This document shows positions 55,907-64,000 of a stretch of 64,000 nucleotides of DNA, one piece after another. Source of the DNA: Maribacter sedimenticola (GTDB taxonomy: Bacteria > Bacteroidota > Bacteroidia > Flavobacteriales > Flavobacteriaceae); contig NZ_FZNV01000001.1 in assembly GCF_900188415.1 (NCBI RefSeq), forward strand, positions 186,001 through 250,000, in the 5' to 3' direction. The position numbers were made by a program, and so were the translations under genes. Numbering within the stretch: position 1 is the first letter of the stretch; each line of letters starts with the position of its first letter. A model generated the notes under the pieces. The model worked only from the letters and a program-made list of their open reading frames with translations. It was not told the origin of the DNA and searched no databases.

Positions 55907-57610
55907 TCATTTATTAGTAAACCTCCTTTTGTAAAGTATAAAAAATATCAAAAGGACTATTGCCAAAGCGGCACTTATATACCATTTGGAAATTCTTTTT
56001 TCCTTTGGAGCAGGGGTTTCTACTATTTCCAATAATTGGTTGGCCGCTATATGTGTTACCACTTGGGAGTTTCCACCGGTCCAGTTAACAATTACACTAT
56101 CAATTTGTGTTTGTAGGCCTATTCCAAAATGGGCAATGACCGTATTTTGTGATAAATGGCTAGATCCGCCACCATCAATCTCCCTAATTTGTTTCTTGCC
56201 ATTAGTAATAACGGTTACGCGAGACCCTATGCCATTGGTTTCAGATGCAATCCCTTTTAAGGCTACTTTTAACCAATTGCCTTTTTTAATATCATTCCTA
56301 AATAATTTTGTTTTTGACGGAATAGGATAGTTTAAAATTGGTTTTTGATTTACCACCAATAAATCCATATCGCCATCATTATCCATATCAAAAATTATGG
56401 AACCTCTACCTATGCCATAATCGTTTATACCATATTCCCTGCCATTTTCCGTAAAGGAGCTGTCCTTGTTTTCAAAATAGAAATTACCCATTGGGGTACA
56501 GTTTGGATTTAAATCGCCATTGGATACAAAAAGGTCTACATCCCCATCATGGTCAAAATCCGCAAAATTAGCTCCCCAACTTATTGCAAGGTTGTACGTG
56601 CCCAATTCTTTTGCCCTATCTATAAACTGCCGGTCGCGGCCTTGGTTTTCCATTAACCAATTGAATTTAATATTGGTAATGTAATAGTCCATCCAACCAT
56701 CATTGTTGAAATCCCCAACAGCGGAACCCATTGCATTAATTTTTAGGTCCATTCCGGTTTCCTTACTGGCATCTTCAAACAGATTATCCGGATACTCGTT
56801 TTTGTACAAAAAATTTGGTACCGCTTTATATCCAAAATCTTGGTTGACCAACAAATCCTGGTCTTGGTCATTATCAAAATCCGTGAAAACCCCACCAAAA
56901 CCAAATCCTTTGTGCCCTAGACCATATTTTTCATATATATTTTTGTATTCCTTGCCTTTGACATTCTTTAATAAATAGCTTTTGGCGGTCTGGTTGGCGC
57001 TAACTATAGTAGCGTCTTTTATAATGCCCAGTTTTCCGGTAAATTCTTGAAAATAGTTGCCTACGAACAAATCTGGGTACCCATCTGCATCTATGTCTCC
57101 AAAACTTGGGCCTGTGCTAAAGGAGTTGAAATCCTCTAGGCCAAAATCTGTGGTAACATCCCTGAACGTTCCGTTACCATTATTTAGAAATAATAGATTT
57201 TTTGCCCTCGGAATAATGTTTTTGCCGTCTGTAGTGGTAATGGTAGTAATGAAGATATCTCTAAACCCATCACGATCAACATCTGCACTAACTACACCTT
57301 GTGTAACAAATTGGTTGGTGAGTTCTAGACCGGAACCTGTAAATACATCTGTAAATGTACCGTCGCCATTATTATGATATAATCTATCCGATACCATACC
57401 CCCGGTTATATATAAATCTTCGAAGCCATCATTATCAAAATCAAAAACAGTTGCTCCGCCACCAAATGTACCTTCATATACTTCATATTGATGGTCTACA
57501 CCTGCAGATACCGTAACATCCGTAAATTCTTGTTGGGCCAAACTGTTCATTTTAACAAGGAGAAACAACAGGAATATAGCCGAGTTTTGGAAGAGTGATA
57601 TATTTTTCAT
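55907..57610 (-). CDS. VCBS/FG-GAP repeat protein with ASPIC/UnbV domain and C-terminal anchor
   Basis: This 567-residue exported protein has a signal peptide (about 9-25), a beta-propeller built of FG-GAP/VCBS repeats with many Ca2+-binding DxDxDG loops (for example FDFDNDGFED near 56, DVDRDGFRD near 110, DFDHDGDVD near 345), an ASPIC/UnbV domain (IGSRVTVITNGKKQIREIDGGGSSHLSQN, about 456-485, in outline) and a C-terminal helix (about 540-560) with a basic tail. It likely binds or handles a ligand at the envelope. It is the last gene of the operon, 1 bp after the haloperoxidase-like gene. Confidence 0.87.
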   Translation of the reverse strand: MKNISLFQNSAIFLLFLLVKMNSLAQQEFTDVTVSAGVDHQYEVYEGTFGGGATVFDFDNDGFEDLYITGGMVSDRLYHNNGDGTFTDVFTGSGLELTNQFVTQGVVSADVDRDGFRDIFITTITTTDGKNIIPRAKNLLFLNNGNGTFRDVTTDFGLEDFNSFSTGPSFGDIDADGYPDLFVGNYFQEFTGKLGIIKDATIVSANQTAKSYLLKNVKGKEYKNIYEKYGLGHKGFGFGGVFTDFDNDQDQDLLVNQDFGYKAVPNFLYKNEYPDNLFEDASKETGMDLKINAMGSAVGDFNNDGWMDYYITNIKFNWLMENQGRDRQFIDRAKELGTYNLAISWGANFADFDHDGDVDLFVSNGDLNPNCTPMGNFYFENKDSSFTENGREYGINDYGIGRGSIIFDMDNDGDMDLLVVNQKPILNYPIPSKTKLFRNDIKKGNWLKVALKGIASETNGIGSRVTVITNGKKQIREIDGGGSSHLSQNTVIAHFGIGLQTQIDSVIVNWTGGNSQVVTHIAANQLLEIVETPAPKEKRISKWYISAALAIVLLIFFILYKRRFTNK

Positions 57611-57611
57611 T

Positions 57612-58964
57612 TTATTTTTTCCATTCTAATGCCGTGATGTTTTTGGCTATAACCACACCTTTTTCCAAGCCTACATCATTATCTTGTTTTGTGTGTATAC
57701 CACCGTAAAATCTAGAGTCTGCCGTTTCTAAAGCGGCATCCCAAAATGTGTCAAAAGTTCTACTTACAAAATCGGTATCCTTTAATTCATCCCTTTCACG
57801 TCCTTCATGTGCCCTGTCCGTAAAGGTGAATTTGGGCCCAAAATTAGATTCAAGTACCGTTGCCGCCGCTGCCGCTTGAATAGCATGGCCAGAAGGGAAT
57901 GAAGGAAAGGGTGGGTCTGGCCAGAAAGACTCCCATTCTTCGTCAATATATTTTGGTATAAAGGTATTTGGCCTTTCGGTAAAAAACTGATATTTCCATT
58001 TCCAACAGTTAATAAATGCATCTGCCACGGCCATACCCATTTGGGCAAATACTTTTGCACTTTCTATCATTGTACTATTATGACCTTCTACAGCCAAAAC
58101 GGCAAAATAATAGGAATGGCCCGGTGGGGTGAAACTTACATCTGGATCGTCTCCCCACCAAATTGCGGCTTCTTTTTCTTTTTTGGTCAACTGTAGATCT
58201 TTGAGATATACAGCCTCAAATTGTTTGTAATATGGAGACCCCACCGTAGTATCATAGGGTATTATTGTTGGGTCCTCTACCATTTTGTTAGATACTGCAA
58301 AGGTTCTGTTCTTGCCCCAGTGCGGATGTAAAGGATGGTGGCTGAATGATTGCGCGAACAGCGGTGGTTTCCAGGCCCCGGGACGATCAGGATGTACCAA
58401 AGTTTTATCAAAGTTAGCTAGATACCCCCTATGGCCACCGTCGTTTTTGGACCATTCAAAAATTGATTGGGCCACTGCCTTGCCATATGCTACGGATCGT
58501 TGCCTGGTCTCTGGGTCTATTTGGTTTTTATATTGGTCATAAACCACTTTTTCCAGCGAATCTATTTTTTGAATGTTCTCTTCAGAAGTTTGAACATATA
58601 TTTTTTTTAAAATTTCTGACTGTCCCGCATTTAATGATAATGGCCAATGATATTCTTTTTCAGTATCTATTTGGGGAATGGAATCAAAACCGCTTAATTG
58701 TCCGCTTAGGCTATTATATTGTCCAAAGCCCGGTACTATGGATTCATACATGGTAAGACCAACATATCCAAATGCACGTGAAGCAAAAGTGGGGGAGTTA
58801 GAGGGGGTATACCTTGTAATAAATAATGTCATATTTGCCCATTCCAACGCAATTTCTTTTTCTGTCATTGGGCGTTCTTCGCTTTTTTTGCACGCACTAA
58901 AAAGCATAATTATGCAGAGAAATGTTACACTATATTTTATTTTTTTGATATAAAATGTCACCAT
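57612..58964 (-). CDS. Vanadium haloperoxidase-like PAP2 lipoprotein
   Basis: This 450-residue lipoprotein (lipobox Cys25, LFSAC) has the C-terminal PAP2/vanadate-binding fold. The oxyanion ligands are complete: Lys324-x6-Arg331-Pro332, Pro357-Ser358-Gly359-His360, and Ser417-Arg418-x3-Gly-x-His424, where His424 would bind vanadate covalently. The same site serves acid phosphatases, so activity on halides versus phosphoesters cannot be decided here. It lies between two ASPIC/VCBS proteins in one operon, a combination seen repeatedly in Bacteroidota. Confidence 0.87.
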   Translation of the reverse strand: MVTFYIKKIKYSVTFLCIIMLFSACKKSEERPMTEKEIALEWANMTLFITRYTPSNSPTFASRAFGYVGLTMYESIVPGFGQYNSLSGQLSGFDSIPQIDTEKEYHWPLSLNAGQSEILKKIYVQTSEENIQKIDSLEKVVYDQYKNQIDPETRQRSVAYGKAVAQSIFEWSKNDGGHRGYLANFDKTLVHPDRPGAWKPPLFAQSFSHHPLHPHWGKNRTFAVSNKMVEDPTIIPYDTTVGSPYYKQFEAVYLKDLQLTKKEKEAAIWWGDDPDVSFTPPGHSYYFAVLAVEGHNSTMIESAKVFAQMGMAVADAFINCWKWKYQFFTERPNTFIPKYIDEEWESFWPDPPFPSFPSGHAIQAAAAATVLESNFGPKFTFTDRAHEGRERDELKDTDFVSRTFDTFWDAALETADSRFYGGIHTKQDNDVGLEKGVVIAKNITALEWKK

Positions 58965-58976
58965 AAGATTGAAATT

Positions 58977-61900
58977 TTATTCTGAAAATGTATAGGTCTG
59001 TAATTCCTTACTATACGTAGTGATCATTAAGTGGCCATTGAGAAGAATTGCTTTAGGTTCACTGCCCAATATTTTAAGACCAGATTCTGATTGGGGTACG
59101 TATTTAAATTTGCCATTGCCATCACCATACAGTAGGGTTCCATAATTGGCATCGAACTTTCCAATTCGTAATTTATAAAAATCATCATTACCTAAAACCA
59201 ATATATCTAAATGGCCATCTTTATTAAAATCCTTGGCAATTAGTTGAGATGTTGGAGCATATTGTGCCTGTTGCGGTAAGATGACCTGTTTTAAGTTTTT
59301 CTTGCCCAAATTTAAAAACAAGGTCGTTTCTTGATGGTCAATAGTCAATTTTTTAGCTTTTTCTAATTCCGATGCACTAAAAATATCAGTAAGTTTTGCA
59401 TTGGCATAGGTCTCATAACTTGTAAAGCGTTGTCTAAAACCTGCCAACTGACCTAAGAGCTCATCCCTTGTTATATAGGGATAACTGGTATTACCAACAT
59501 AAAAATTCAAAATGGGGTCTATAGAGCCGTTTTGATCAAAATCCGTAAAGTAAAGTGTAGCTGGGGTGGCGGAACTTACCTTAAATTGGGTATTTACGCC
59601 TATGTTTCCGGCAAGTATATCAATATTGCCATCCTTGTTAATATCCGCAAGTTCCAATGTCGTCCAAAGGCCATTTAATTCATTGTTGAAATAAGTACCG
59701 GTCTCATCTACCAACTTTCCATTTTTGTTCACATATATACGTACCGGTGCCCAATCTCCCACAGTAACAAGGTCATCTATAGAATCACCATCAATATCTG
59801 CCCATTTAGCATCGGTTATTGCTCCGGGCATCTGTAATGAGGGCTGTACCTGTTGTGTTTGGTCAATGAACTCACCCTTGCCGTTGTTTATCAGCACATA
59901 ACTTCTAGAACATTCTGGATACCTCCCAGGAATATAGTCACCACCAATGAACAGGTCTGTATAGGAATCCTTATTGATATCTGAAAAAGATATACTGCCC
60001 GTATTGGTCAGCATGGTCGGTAATGCGGATTTCATCCTGGAAAAATTACCCTTTCCGTCCCCTATGTACAGTCTATCCTGTAAACGAACATCATTTGGTT
60101 TTAGGTCATGATATCCACCACTTGCAATATATACATCCAAATTTCCATCTGCATTAGCGTCAAACACGGCAATATCGGTATCAAAATAGTCGACATCCTC
60201 TAAAAAATCATTTATAGGGCGTTGCGAAAATTTGTTTGCTTTGGTCTGTAAATAAAGTGAGGCGCCTTGTCCTATTCCACCGCCTATTAGTATATCTTCC
60301 AAACCATTATTATCGATATCGGCTTTAACGATTACCGGACTTTTATGCGAAAATTGCTTCAATAACAAGGATTGCCTTTTAAAATCATTAAAGCCCGTTG
60401 ATGCATGTTCATAGTTTACGGGAGATTGCACTTTGGTGAACAATGGTTTAAGCTTCTCTGTTTTTGAGACTTTTTTAGAGGCATTGACTTCTTCAATAAC
60501 CACCGTTTGGTTTGTAAGTACAGCAGTAAGTATTTCTTTTTTGCCGGAATTCCACTCTATTTGAACCGAGTCTATTACCTGAATATCTCCCATGCCAAAA
60601 TGTAGGATAGACGAAACTGTAGATAGGTAGCCTTGCGTTGGCATTTGCTCTAAAACCTGTAATTGGTTTTTGGCATATACACTTACTTTAGCACCAATAC
60701 CAATGGTATTTTTGTTGGCTCCTTTTAATTTAATCTTTAAATATCTATTGGTTGTAACATCACTATCGTTCCTATAAATAAAAGCGGGCTTATTAATATT
60801 GTTAACTACTAAATCCAAATCCCCATCATTGTCCAAATCACTATAAACGGCGCCATTGCTATTGGCAGGATGATCTATTCCAAGTTCTTGGGTATGATCG
60901 GTGAATTCTGTACCGTTTACATTTGTGTAATAGTAATTGGTTAAATTGGAAGAAGGCATTTCTTTGATGAGTTCCAAAACATCCTGGCGTTGTAAACGTC
61001 CTTTAGTCTGCACAAAATCCTCCATGTAATTTATGAAGTCCAAATTGGTATAGTCCCTATAATATCCATTGGTGATATATAGATCTTTGAAGCCATCATT
61101 ATTAAAGTCGGCAAAAAGGGGGGCCCAACTCCAATCCGTATTTGAAATACCGGATAATTGACCCACTTCGCTAAAGGTACTGTTGCCATTGTTTAATTGA
61201 AGCATGTTGCGCATATACTGATGATGAAAGCCACTTCTAATATTCAGGTCGAATTTTTCATAGTTGTCTGGGGACAATAACAATTTCTGTCTTTTGTTAT
61301 CCTCTGGCAACATGTCCAAGGTGAACACATCTTGCCAACCGTCATTATTAATATCAATGACATTATTACCCATGGAGAAATGGCTGGTATGTCCCATTTG
61401 CTTCCCTAATTGATCTGTAAACGTGCCGTTTTTATTATTGATATACAAATAATCTGGAACGGTATAATCGTTTGATATATAGAAGTCCTGCCACCCGTCA
61501 TTATTAATGTCACCGATACCAATACCTAGTCCATATGATAATGCGGAACCACTGATACCGGCTTCAACGGTTACATCTATAAAGGTTCCATTTTTTTGCT
61601 CAAAAAGTCGGGTGCCTTGTAGTGGGTCATCTTTTTTAAGGAACTGTTTTGTACTTACCTCATTGAGAACGGGTAAGGATTTTGGATTATGGTTTAATAA
61701 CAACATATCTAAATCCCCATCCTTGTCATAGTCAAAAAAATATCCCTGATTGCTAAATGCAGCACTTGCCAATCCATATTGAGCAGCTTCGTCCTTAAAT
61801 ATAGGAACGTTGTTCTCATCATTGCCCTGATTGATAAAAAGTTGATTTTGTCTTTTTGCATCTGGCAACGCACCTGAATAACAAAGGTATATATCCAATT

Positions 61901-62318
61901 TTCCATCACCGTTTACATCAACTGAAGAAACCCCTGTTTTCCATGGCCCGGGCCTACCGTTAATTTTGGCTATTGATGTTACATCCTTAAAATTTAGATT
62001 ACCTTGGTTAAGGTATAGTTTATTGCTACCCATGTTGGAAGAGAAATACAGGTCCTCTAAACCATCCCCATTAAAATCTCCTGCCGCCACACCGCCACCA
62101 TTATACAAATATTCATAAACCAGTACATTGGCGTTTAAACCTTCGTTCAGGGTGTTTTCAAATGTTATATTCGTTTGTTCAGGGGTCAATAATGTAAAAA
62201 GGTGAGATTTTTTTATAGGGGTATCCGCAACTTCAACAGGGTTCTTTTCTGGCCTTTCATTACAACCAATCAATAGAACAATACAAAAAGAAAGAAGTGT
62301 AAATTGTTTTTTTGTCAT
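58977..62318 (-). CDS. Large VCBS/FG-GAP lipoprotein with ASPIC/UnbV domain
   Basis: This 1113-residue lipoprotein (lipobox Cys19, LIGC) has two beta-propeller halves of FG-GAP/VCBS repeats (DxDGDGxxDLxx-type Ca2+ loops such as DFNGDGLED, DVNGDGKLD, DINNDGWQD and DFNKDGHLD), separated by an ASPIC/UnbV segment near 530-600 (KGANKNTIGIGAKVSVY, GYLSTVSSILHFGMGD). It is likely surface-exposed, in the way SusE/F-type lipoproteins are. I start it at 62318; an earlier in-frame TTG lies within the terminator hairpin of the susD gene. Confidence 0.87.
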   Translation of the reverse strand: MTKKQFTLLSFCIVLLIGCNERPEKNPVEVADTPIKKSHLFTLLTPEQTNITFENTLNEGLNANVLVYEYLYNGGGVAAGDFNGDGLEDLYFSSNMGSNKLYLNQGNLNFKDVTSIAKINGRPGPWKTGVSSVDVNGDGKLDIYLCYSGALPDAKRQNQLFINQGNDENNVPIFKDEAAQYGLASAAFSNQGYFFDYDKDGDLDMLLLNHNPKSLPVLNEVSTKQFLKKDDPLQGTRLFEQKNGTFIDVTVEAGISGSALSYGLGIGIGDINNDGWQDFYISNDYTVPDYLYINNKNGTFTDQLGKQMGHTSHFSMGNNVIDINNDGWQDVFTLDMLPEDNKRQKLLLSPDNYEKFDLNIRSGFHHQYMRNMLQLNNGNSTFSEVGQLSGISNTDWSWAPLFADFNNDGFKDLYITNGYYRDYTNLDFINYMEDFVQTKGRLQRQDVLELIKEMPSSNLTNYYYTNVNGTEFTDHTQELGIDHPANSNGAVYSDLDNDGDLDLVVNNINKPAFIYRNDSDVTTNRYLKIKLKGANKNTIGIGAKVSVYAKNQLQVLEQMPTQGYLSTVSSILHFGMGDIQVIDSVQIEWNSGKKEILTAVLTNQTVVIEEVNASKKVSKTEKLKPLFTKVQSPVNYEHASTGFNDFKRQSLLLKQFSHKSPVIVKADIDNNGLEDILIGGGIGQGASLYLQTKANKFSQRPINDFLEDVDYFDTDIAVFDANADGNLDVYIASGGYHDLKPNDVRLQDRLYIGDGKGNFSRMKSALPTMLTNTGSISFSDINKDSYTDLFIGGDYIPGRYPECSRSYVLINNGKGEFIDQTQQVQPSLQMPGAITDAKWADIDGDSIDDLVTVGDWAPVRIYVNKNGKLVDETGTYFNNELNGLWTTLELADINKDGNIDILAGNIGVNTQFKVSSATPATLYFTDFDQNGSIDPILNFYVGNTSYPYITRDELLGQLAGFRQRFTSYETYANAKLTDIFSASELEKAKKLTIDHQETTLFLNLGKKNLKQVILPQQAQYAPTSQLIAKDFNKDGHLDILVLGNDDFYKLRIGKFDANYGTLLYGDGNGKFKYVPQSESGLKILGSEPKAILLNGHLMITTYSKELQTYTFSE

Positions 62319-62331
62319 TTGCTTAAATGTA

Positions 62332-62362
62332 AAAAATCTATCCCACAAAGGGATAGATTTTT
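62332..62362 (-). terminator. Terminator/attenuator between susD and the ASPIC operon
   Basis: AAAAATCTATCCC and GGGATAGATTTTT form a perfect 13-bp stem with a 5-nt loop and T tracts at both sides. It lies 25 bp past the susD stop and 14 bp before the next start codon, so downstream genes depend on read-through or a new start. Confidence 0.87.
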
Positions 62363-62386
62363 CGAATAACTCAAAATTAAATTAAC

Positions 62387-64000
62387 TTAATAGCCAGGGT
62401 TCTGGATCAATAATTCATTACGATTAATTTCATCTCTACTTAAAGGCATGAAATACATCTTATCATCCCAAATTCTGGTTTCATTATCGGTGTTGTCAAC
62501 TACATTATAGGTATAGTCATACACCTCTGGATCGTATTGGTAAGGGCTTCTTGGCGTAGCACCCGGCTTTAATTTGGCGGAAACTTTCATAACCTTGATT
62601 CCCCTGCCTAAAGTCTGATCGGCTATCATCCACCTTCTGGCATCATGATATCTATGCTCTTCATAGGCCAATTCTATTCTTCTTTCGTTTATATATGCCT
62701 CCAATAAAGCGTCACCAGATGCTGTAATTGCCGGCATTCCTGCCCTAAACCTTATTTTGTTGAGCCAATTTCTTGCCTCACCTTCATCACCGGTTGCAAT
62801 AGAGGCTTCAACATAGTTCAATACAATTTCAGTATATCTAATAAATGGCCAAGGAACTACTTGTGCACTGGACTGATTATCTACCAAGGACGGGTCCGGA
62901 TCAATAAACTTTCTTACATAATATCCAGTTCTACTTCCGTTCCAGTTTTCAATTGGAGAATCGCGCATATCCACACCAGGGATAATTCCTCCACTACCGT
63001 TATCATAGGTACCGGTCTGTATTTCATCATAAGGGTCAATGGAAGCTACATCATCAGGTCTTGGTTTCCATGGGGCGCCATCATATAGAATGGTAGCTGC
63101 CAACCTAGGGTCCCTGTTTTCATAGGGTGCGGCGGCATGATCAGGATTGCTCCAGTCAAATTCAGAACCGTCCATCATTTGATAATCATCCACCAATTGT
63201 TGAATAGGTGTATTACCTGCCCAGTTGTGGTACCCGTTTGGACCATTGTTGATTCCTTGGTGAATACCTCCCAAAGGCCAGTTACTTTCTTGGGTAAATA
63301 GCGGTGAATGCGTTCTTTCAAATAAAAGTTCAGATCTAGCGGCAGCATCACCAACAGCACTTCCACCTCCCATAGCAATAGAGATGTAGGTTTCTGTTGC
63401 TTCTTCTGCAGAAGCAGGTTCAGTTAAGTCCAATTTATATCCGCTGGCCTCACTGTCCAAAACTGCCTTTGCCGCATTTTTAGCTAAAATCCATCTTGAT
63501 TCCCTATCTCCAGAAGTATAGGCGATTAAGTCTTGATTTGCATAGCTTCCTATTGTAGCCGATTTTTGTGCAGCAGTCGTTGCATCTCTTAGGTCACTTG
63601 CCGCATATAGCAATACCCTGGATTTTAGACCCATTGCACTTAATTGAGACGCCCTTCCAGGGGTAGTTTCCTTACCGTCCAATAATGAAATGGCATTATC
63701 CAAATCTGCGACTACAAAATCGACATTTTCCGCATATGTACTTCTGGCGATGGAGTAATCCTCATCTAGACCATATGGCCTATCAATTAAGGGAGCGCCA
63801 CCGTAGTATCTCATTAATTGATGGTAATAATAAGCTCTTAAAAAATGTGCTTCGCCAAGTAAACGGTCCTTTAATACCTGATCGTCAAATGTGGCATTTG
63901 GCAATTCTTGAATAGCAATATTAGCTTTTCTTATGGCTGAATATAATTCGTCCCACTGTGGAATAATATTAACGTTACCGGTACCAGAAGGTGATAATGC
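62387..64000 (-). CDS. RagB/SusD-family outer-membrane lipoprotein (5' end beyond window)
   Basis: This is the C-terminal 537 codons of a SusD protein, which binds glycans or other nutrients at the cell surface with a SusC TonB-dependent transporter. The frame stays open to the window edge; the first visible residues contain WDELYSAIRKANIAIQ, a SusD landmark. Further typical segments are EAHFLRAYYYHQLMRYYGGAPL near codon 53 and the C-terminal RYTEIVLNYVEA, IRFRAGMP, YINERRIELAYEEHRYHDARRW blocks (in outline). The SusC partner should lie just beyond the window. A terminator follows it. Confidence 0.93.
   Translation of the reverse strand, partial: ALSPSGTGNVNIIPQWDELYSAIRKANIAIQELPNATFDDQVLKDRLLGEAHFLRAYYYHQLMRYYGGAPLIDRPYGLDEDYSIARSTYAENVDFVVADLDNAISLLDGKETTPGRASQLSAMGLKSRVLLYAASDLRDATTAAQKSATIGSYANQDLIAYTSGDRESRWILAKNAAKAVLDSEASGYKLDLTEPASAEEATETYISIAMGGGSAVGDAAARSELLFERTHSPLFTQESNWPLGGIHQGINNGPNGYHNWAGNTPIQQLVDDYQMMDGSEFDWSNPDHAAAPYENRDPRLAATILYDGAPWKPRPDDVASIDPYDEIQTGTYDNGSGGIIPGVDMRDSPIENWNGSRTGYYVRKFIDPDPSLVDNQSSAQVVPWPFIRYTEIVLNYVEASIATGDEGEARNWLNKIRFRAGMPAITASGDALLEAYINERRIELAYEEHRYHDARRWMIADQTLGRGIKVMKVSAKLKPGATPRSPYQYDPEVYDYTYNVVDNTDNETRIWDDKMYFMPLSRDEINRNELLIQNPGY

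Follow-up and report, generated by a model that had tools for sequence, protein, structure and literature searches.

A SusC–SusD cassette with a haloperoxidase-like gene

The stretch of DNA analysed here, a 64,000-nucleotide window of the Maribacter sedimenticola genome (contig NZ_FZNV01000001.1, positions 186,001 to 250,000), ends in four minus-strand genes which, together with a SusC gene past the window edge, make up a cassette in the order SusC, SusD, large ASPIC/FG-GAP lipoprotein, haloperoxidase-like lipoprotein and small membrane-anchored ASPIC protein. The four genes inside the window had been named in an original prediction made from the sequence alone, and Pfam places all of them where they were expected. 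The SusD-like lipoprotein (62387–64000, minus strand) has the C-terminal 537 of its 626 residues in the window and matches SusD_RagB (E = 5.6e-54) and SusD-like_3 (E = 4.1e-20); it was also compared with solved structures. Its full gene lies at L009:9388–11268, L009 being the genomic continuation past the window edge. SusC, which the original prediction had anticipated beyond the edge, is encoded at L009:11278–14526 (minus strand, 1082 aa; phmmer match to a solved SusC homologue, E = 8.1e-118). Across 445 bases of intergenic DNA it faces the divergent gene of a GntR-type regulator (L009:14972–15988, plus strand), in which a GntR DNA-binding domain is combined with a periplasmic-binding-protein-like domain.

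The remaining three genes follow susD on the minus strand. The first encodes the large ASPIC/FG-GAP lipoprotein (58977–62348, with the ATG probably at 62318; 1113 aa; UnbV_ASPIC E = 1.1e-19, FG-GAP_3 E = 1.4e-71), the second a vanadium-haloperoxidase-like lipoprotein of the PAP2 family (57612–58964; 450 aa; PF01569 E = 4.4e-9) and the third the small ASPIC/FG-GAP protein (55907–57610; 567 aa; UnbV_ASPIC E = 2.6e-18), which has a signal peptide and a C-terminal hydrophobic anchor. Since the gaps between the genes, from SusC through the small ASPIC gene, amount to 9, 68, 12 and 1 bases, the five genes may form a single transcription unit with a leaky stop after susD.

Conservation and joint inheritance of the five-gene unit

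The five genes represent a conserved cassette that is inherited jointly. Searching a genome collection with the enzyme retrieves 70 loci from Flavobacteriia, Chitinophagia, Cytophagia, Saprospiria and unplaced Bacteroidota; 19 are from Maribacter, many of the others are metagenome-assembled contigs, and the search detects only relatives that have exact short peptides in common. Gene context was read with family profiles seeded from the window's own proteins and with diagrams that drew frames of at least 120 aa. A flank requirement of 5.5 kb or more upstream and 1.5 kb or more downstream leaves 52 relatives (18 of the 70 are dropped by the upstream rule), and 41 of them have the strict same-strand order SusC–SusD–ASPIC–enzyme–ASPIC. 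Under the same rule, 40 of the 52 have SusC and SusD upstream and, no more than 1.5 kb away, an ASPIC gene on each side of the enzyme. With a shorter flank requirement (3.5 kb upstream, 1.5 kb downstream; 15 of the 70 dropped), ASPIC genes flank the enzyme on both sides in 43 of 55 relatives. The exceptions are in part rearrangements: in L063, L071 and L074 the large ASPIC gene is divergent and precedes SusC, and the order in L056 is enzyme–ASPIC–ASPIC–enzyme. Co-occurrence of the three families and the sequence past the window edge had been proposed as checks of the original prediction, and both lead to the same five-gene unit.

The linkage follows the phylogeny of the enzyme. In a tree of 110 rows, built from frames of 380 to 619 aa with three rows left unscored, the Maribacter enzyme belongs to a clade of 68 (SH-aLRT 99, quick method). 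Among the clade members with enough flank, 56 of 58 have an adjoining same-strand ASPIC gene, the exceptions being L048 and L064, whereas outside the clade this is the case in none of the 16 rows with enough flank. These counts leave out ten of the 68 clade rows for short flank, nine of which show an ASPIC gene while L066 does not, and two of the 18 outside rows; when short contigs are scored whenever an ASPIC gene is visible, the figure for the clade becomes 65 of 67. Of the outside rows, L089 and L167 are one sequence. In L172 the neighbouring ASPIC gene is on the opposite strand. The ASPIC-neighbour label requires 8 changes on the 110-row tree versus a mean of 22.8 after shuffling, and none of 500 shuffles is as low. 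In an independent, evenly drawn set of 395 genomes from the phylum, 13 genomes, that of Maribacter among them, match at E = 1e-60 or better. All three further genomes at 58–60% identity carry the cassette (the enzyme sequence of one, L160, is that of L070), and the fifteen places at 35–47% identity do not. Finally, tree distances of the five cassette genes over 38 loci correlate at 0.83–0.96, the highest value in 999 permutations being 0.42; this comparison is Maribacter-heavy, includes no unlinked control gene, and speaks to joint inheritance, not physical interaction. Chance adjacency of the genes is ruled out by the gene-order counts, the contrast between the clade and its outside, and the tree-distance correlation. 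The unit spans the four named classes and ties one haloperoxidase subfamily to a nutrient importer and to the ASPIC/UnbV family. Full-text searches of the open-licence literature, judged by titles and the starts of abstracts of the papers listed, found no account of it.

The terminator that the original prediction placed after susD is real as a hairpin (62331–62363, minus strand) that follows susD and precedes the large ASPIC gene. Its 3' arm holds a T-run, and its 14 pairs, counted by eye, include one G-T pair; it is a candidate intra-operon terminator or attenuator. Stems of 10 or more pairs followed by a T-rich tail are present in 33 of 41 relatives, mostly 20–35 bases after susD, while shuffled sequences give a mean of 0.2 and a maximum of 3. 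One of 42 intergenic segments was dropped from this count for ambiguous bases, and the Maribacter stem fails the tail rule of the script and is not among the 33. In an alignment of 21 sequences, 94% of the cells pair and 7 of 11 pairs are altered on both sides, a number that falls to 1 to 4 on sliding the partner; the sequences were chosen by hand, nearly all from loci with a stem already found, and two end inside the stem. The hairpin is probably not special to this locus, because hairpins follow other susD genes of the same genome (four of the five checked, under a looser rule and with no shuffle control). Its role is probably a general one, tuning the expression of SusCD relative to the downstream genes. 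The notion that a terminator signals unrelated units was rejected: the hairpin is kept while the gene order is kept, and hairpins also follow other susD genes. A scan for promoter-like sites gave 45 versus 41.6 in shuffled sequence, which is no excess, and did not report the hairpin.

The haloperoxidase-like enzyme and its relatives

In line with the original prediction, the enzyme has all vanadate ligands, namely K324, R331, S358, G359, H360, R418 and H424, and these seven residues are invariant in 68 of 68 aligned sequences, the Maribacter enzyme included. The second-sphere residues W321 and F353, counterparts of W350 and F397 of chloroperoxidase, are conserved in 67 and 68 of the 68 rows, respectively. 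The PAP2 signature (K-x6-R, SGH and SR-x5-H) is present as well; it is common to haloperoxidases, so it is not decisive. In a sequence search against solved structures the best hit is the vanadium iodoperoxidase of Zobellia galactanivorans (ZgVIPO1; PDB 4cit, 4usz), with E = 1.7e-47 for 4cit and 0.1 for the next best. Residues 31–450 of the predicted model (pLDDT 88) align with 4cit at Z 44.3 (rmsd 3.0, 392 residues, 30% identity). Fungal and bacterial chloroperoxidases and their homologues follow at Z 28.6–30.3, with the fungal chloroperoxidase at 30.3, and acid phosphatases at Z of about 12–13 over 181–194 residues (best 12.8). Class A acid phosphatases are compact, with a domain of about 220 residues. 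According to the model, the enzyme has a full-length haloperoxidase fold that reaches beyond the PAP2 core. A lipoprotein-type cysteine, C25, is invariant in 40 of 40 aligned rows, from which surface display is predicted. NCBIfam yields only weak matches, all under its cut-offs. PADLOC has no match for the three window proteins, and a role in anti-phage defence was dropped on this ground.

Membership in the PAP2 family also invites another explanation, namely that the enzyme is a surface phosphatase or phosphotransferase which would dephosphorylate a phosphorylated glycan or similar compound before import through SusCD, the vanadate site being a phosphate site. One kind of site indeed serves both activities, and apo-chloroperoxidase can dephosphorylate, as the title of entry 3bb0 states. 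In addition, an alkaline phosphatase gene lies a few genes downstream of the cassette in L046, and the cassette is found in freshwater and soil genera, where bromide and iodide are scarce. However, both the full-length sequence and the fold are far nearer to iodoperoxidase (Z 44) and chloroperoxidase (Z 30) than to acid phosphatases (Z of about 13, 181–194 residues), and the second-sphere tryptophan and phenylalanine of chloroperoxidase are conserved. A plain phosphatase, which the original prediction listed as its own refutation, is thus disfavoured by the near-full-length match to the Zobellia enzyme, although the active-site residues are common to both kinds of enzyme; we consider this explanation unlikely, if a serious competitor.

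The Maribacter genome carries another haloperoxidase on contig C12, close to the Zobellia enzyme (E = 3e-224). Its gene lies 3' of two ASPIC genes, with SusC and SusD slightly upstream, past an opposite-strand sodium-solute symporter gene. The halide specificity of the cassette enzyme is unreadable from its sequence, because the C12 copy carries the same tryptophan and phenylalanine in the second sphere; these residues were tried as a guide to halide choice and set aside. The determinants of halide preference have been described as elusive in two papers (PMC11871015, PMC13198595). Of 20 Zobellia-type loci in other genera of this family, 14 have an ASPIC gene directly next to the enzyme gene, which often follows several ASPIC genes in tandem. 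The 20 loci were taken from 22 places with E < 1e-100, two of the 20 (L138, L139) being only about 40% identical to the C12 copy, and the fetched stretches mostly end before any SusCD farther upstream could be seen. The symporter gene (L011:2853–4469) recurs beside Zobellia-type haloperoxidases, with similar frames in 7 of the 20 loci, and is also seen near the cassettes of L037 and L065.

The two subfamilies are alike in several respects: the fold is similar over nearly the whole chain, the C12 close homologue has the same vanadate ligands, and both are linked to ASPIC genes. The cassette enzyme, however, forms a separate, well-supported clade. The residue preceding its SGH motif is proline, not threonine, and an alanine of the C12 copy is replaced in it by aspartate; it is linked with SusC, SusD, one large and one small ASPIC gene and not with tandem large ones. 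Two loci, L056 (Sediminibacterium) and L058 (Thermoflexibacter), have two haloperoxidases each, the second from the Zobellia side of the tree; these second enzymes are on long branches, which makes their subfamily less sure, and the one in L056 fails the simple ligand pattern. The vanadium chloroperoxidase of Curvularia (PDB 1vnc and others) also resembles the cassette enzyme in fold (Z about 30), vanadate ligands and the counterparts of W350 and F397, but it is only 18–19% identical and is a fungal, secreted protein not known to be tied to a transporter. Statements made here on the activity of the Zobellia enzyme are based on PDB titles, citations in other papers and general knowledge. A third, distant haloperoxidase-like gene of the Maribacter genome is found at G000:C11:239933–241342 (493 aa frame). 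In several Flavobacteriaceae genomes, the C-terminal PAP2 part of the enzyme also matches within frames of about 730–760 or 1250–1420 aa, indicating a recurring larger PAP2 protein.

ASPIC proteins, neighbouring genes and possible function

Both ASPIC proteins contain PF07593 together with FG-GAP propeller repeats, over the curated Pfam cut-off, and thus have the FG-GAP propeller and C-terminal ASPIC domain of CRTAC1/ASPIC-UnbV proteins. Features that set them apart from CRTAC1 are the second propeller and the lipid anchor of the large protein and the C-terminal membrane anchor of the small one. In the model of the large protein (pLDDT 85), an N-terminal CRTAC1-like propeller and the ASPIC domain (Z 39.3 to CRTAC1) are followed by a second, C-terminal beta-propeller. 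Its lipoprotein-type cysteine, C19, is invariant in 30 of 30 aligned rows, and the protein is predicted to reside on the surface of the outer membrane. The small protein is a CRTAC1 relative over residues 105–536. Conservation of its C-terminal hydrophobic stretch (58 of 59 relatives; the exception, L050, ends at a contig edge) suggests that it is periplasmic and anchored in the inner membrane. Its residues 366–371, D-L-N-P-N-C, are invariant in 23 of 23 aligned rows and could be a binding or active site. To our knowledge, no function has been assigned to bacterial CRTAC1/ASPIC-UnbV proteins.

SusC and SusD genes are found near all 10 ASPIC genes detected in the Maribacter genome. In one of these loci (L010) an ASPIC protein of similar size lies beside GH67; in another (L013) it accompanies GH43, an arabinofuranosidase C-terminal domain, a sugar (carbohydrate) kinase and L-arabinose isomerase. 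ASPIC proteins thus seem to serve SusCD systems in general as accessory proteins, and finding them does not exclude a glycan ligand. An arylsulfotransferase-like protein is encoded between SusC/SusD and an ASPIC gene in a further locus (L014:11912–13258).

The original prediction correctly noted the lack of glycoside hydrolases, sulfatases and peptidases: by Pfam, none of these or any other carbohydrate-active enzyme adjoins the Maribacter cassette, among nine neighbours with a match and a 142 aa protein with none. From this lack, and from the ASPIC/VCBS proteins, it argued for a halogenated, aromatic or phosphorylated ligand, a conclusion not supported in view of the GH67 and GH43/arabinose loci and of sugar genes beside some relatives. 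The idea of ASPIC as a marker of a non-glycan ligand was rejected on account of those two kinds of locus in the genome. Among the neighbours of other cassettes, of which selected proteins were annotated, galactokinase occurs in L036 (by Pfam), L041 (by similarity) and L057 (by similarity, about 9 kb away), and L037 has an opposite-strand group of L-arabinose genes (symporter, epimerase, isomerase, aldolase, kinase). GH92, GH28 and GH115 are close to the cassette in L055, GH36 and GH2 in L049, and a GDSL esterase and a pectinesterase in L059; L043 encodes a GH42-like protein, and L065 a weakly GH31/GH36-like protein and a sodium-solute symporter. Other neighbours are not sugar genes, such as the alkaline phosphatase, DprA and an amidohydrolase in L046, an FAD oxidase in L049, adenosine deaminase in L087 and a sulfatase-modifying-factor domain upstream of the cassette in L077. 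The regulators also vary, being of the GntR or LacI type, or FecR with a longer SusC. The galactose/arabinose theme is only a hint. Nevertheless, because of the GH67 and arabinose-type ASPIC loci of the genome and the sugar genes near some cassettes, a glycan-type ligand is at least as likely as a halogenated, aromatic or phosphorylated one. The initial proposal, that a halogenated or aromatic small molecule is imported and modified, is quite improbable in our view. Enzymes of this class do form electrophilic halogen species, most likely hypohalous acid (PMC11871015), and their action on aromatics is noted in a halogenase survey preprint (PMC12871659); yet the selected annotated neighbours include no dehalogenase, ring-cleavage or aromatic-catabolic gene. 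The strings Bacteroid-, Flavobacteri- and SusD do not appear in the text of that preprint.

Bacteroidota polysaccharide utilisation loci offer the nearest comparison for the cassette as a whole. They, too, combine a SusC/SusD pair with a surface-type lipoprotein accessory and a divergent regulator that has a sugar-sensor-like domain, and the hairpin after susD has counterparts at other susD genes of the Maribacter genome. In the cassette, however, the sole enzyme is of the haloperoxidase type, and Pfam finds no carbohydrate-active enzyme among the neighbours of the Maribacter copy. We tentatively propose, at a probability of about 0.42, that the cassette is a unit for uptake through SusCD, with a surface haloperoxidase as its enzyme, which acts on material before import. 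SusC and SusD would form a TonB-driven importer in the outer membrane, beside which the large ASPIC lipoprotein, with two surface beta-propellers, may catch or position the substrate in the manner of a surface glycan-binding protein. The surface-tethered vanadium haloperoxidase would use environmental H2O2 and halide to generate hypohalous species, and this oxidant would modify or cleave a bulky substrate next to the importer, so that the enzyme would occupy the place of the surface glycoside hydrolase in an ordinary polysaccharide locus. The products would then pass through SusCD into the periplasm, to be handled there by the small ASPIC protein, putatively held at the periplasmic face of the inner membrane by its anchor, and the whole might be regulated by the GntR protein with its sugar-sensor-like domain. 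The location at the surface, the haloperoxidase activity, the halide, the substrate, the processing before import and the roles of both ASPIC proteins are presumptive parts of this proposal, whereas gene order, conservation and joint inheritance of the unit, the vanadate-site residues, the predicted fold and the lipoprotein and anchor signals are observed. As the position of the enzyme beside an importer hints, Bacteroidota with the cassette may treat material with oxidised halides before uptake. We know of no clear account of a bacterial role for vanadium haloperoxidases outside natural-product biosynthesis and of no settled account of the role of Zobellia-type iodoperoxidases. The cassette also provides a context in which function prediction can place many proteins annotated as 'VCBS repeat' or 'PAP2'.

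A more specific form of this proposal, somewhat unlikely as it stands, makes the haloperoxidase an oxidative front-end of the SusCD importer: hypohalite released at the transporter mouth would break or open a recalcitrant polymer, much like a copper-free oxidative polysaccharide mono-oxygenase, and the pairing of enzyme and ASPIC protein would have arisen, or been kept, in two haloperoxidase subfamilies. If true, Zobellia-type iodoperoxidases would gain a nutritional function.

Several observations weigh against a haloperoxidase acting ahead of import. Counted per genus-level group, ASPIC genes flank the enzyme on both sides in only 18 of 30 scorable groups, and the two exceptional clade members, L048 and L064, which have neither ASPIC nor SusCD neighbours, indicate that the enzyme can occur outside the unit. 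Conversely, SusCD–ASPIC loci without the enzyme exist, so that the link to uptake may run through ASPIC alone. The active-site residues by themselves do not separate a haloperoxidase from a PAP2 phosphatase. Among the annotated neighbours, a candidate H2O2-forming enzyme, an FAD oxidase of the glycerophosphate oxidase type, is near the cassette only in L049, and none was identified in the largest neighbour clusters. Finally, the cassette is found in Flavihumibacter, Sediminibacterium and Flectobacillus, which are freshwater and soil genera; bromide and iodide are scarce in such habitats, and the enzyme would therefore need to use chloride there, while its nearest solved relative is titled an iodoperoxidase.

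The haloperoxidase could instead be protective or aggressive, using up the H2O2 of algal or plant defence or directing hypohalite against competitors and signals, while SusCD and the ASPIC proteins import an ordinary glycan of the same prey, both functions being needed on living algae or plants. The glycan and sugar genes near some cassettes would suit such a division of labour. Moreover, expression of vIPO3 in Zobellia is higher on the brown alga Ascophyllum than on alginate, as reported in a paragraph on algal defence (PMC9296495), vIPO3 not being an established orthologue of the present enzyme. But across many families, freshwater and soil genera included, the enzyme is co-inherited with SusC, SusD and the two ASPIC genes more tightly than a shared habitat needs, and we judge this account unlikely, if as serious a competitor as the phosphatase. 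Still another possibility is halogen acquisition, with iodide oxidised outside the cell and iodine species carried in, as proposed for iodine-accumulating Arenibacter. Strain C-21 is reported to take up iodine in an H2O2-dependent manner and to have five or more homologues of the Zobellia vanadium iodoperoxidase (PMC5064120). This possibility appears very remote: no halogen-handling gene was recognised among the annotated neighbours, SusCD systems are known for importing organic ligands, and the cassette also occurs in genera from low-iodide habitats.

Beyond the GntR regulator the Maribacter genome encodes polyprenyl synthetase, lycopene cyclase and a TonB-dependent receptor, and 3' of the small ASPIC gene a sigma-70-type factor, the 142 aa protein, TetR, and outer-membrane efflux, HlyD-type and AcrB-type proteins. 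When 427 neighbour genes of 62 loci were clustered by blastp, no recurrent sixth gene emerged: most of the 22 clusters inspected reflect flavobacterial synteny (efflux pump, polyprenyl synthetase, lycopene cyclase, GntR), and a few are small. Two records may be misnamed: L045, named Cytophaga sp. FL35, has flavobacterial synteny, and the enzyme of L071, named Cellulophaga sp. BC115SP, is nearly identical to that of Flectobacillus L074.

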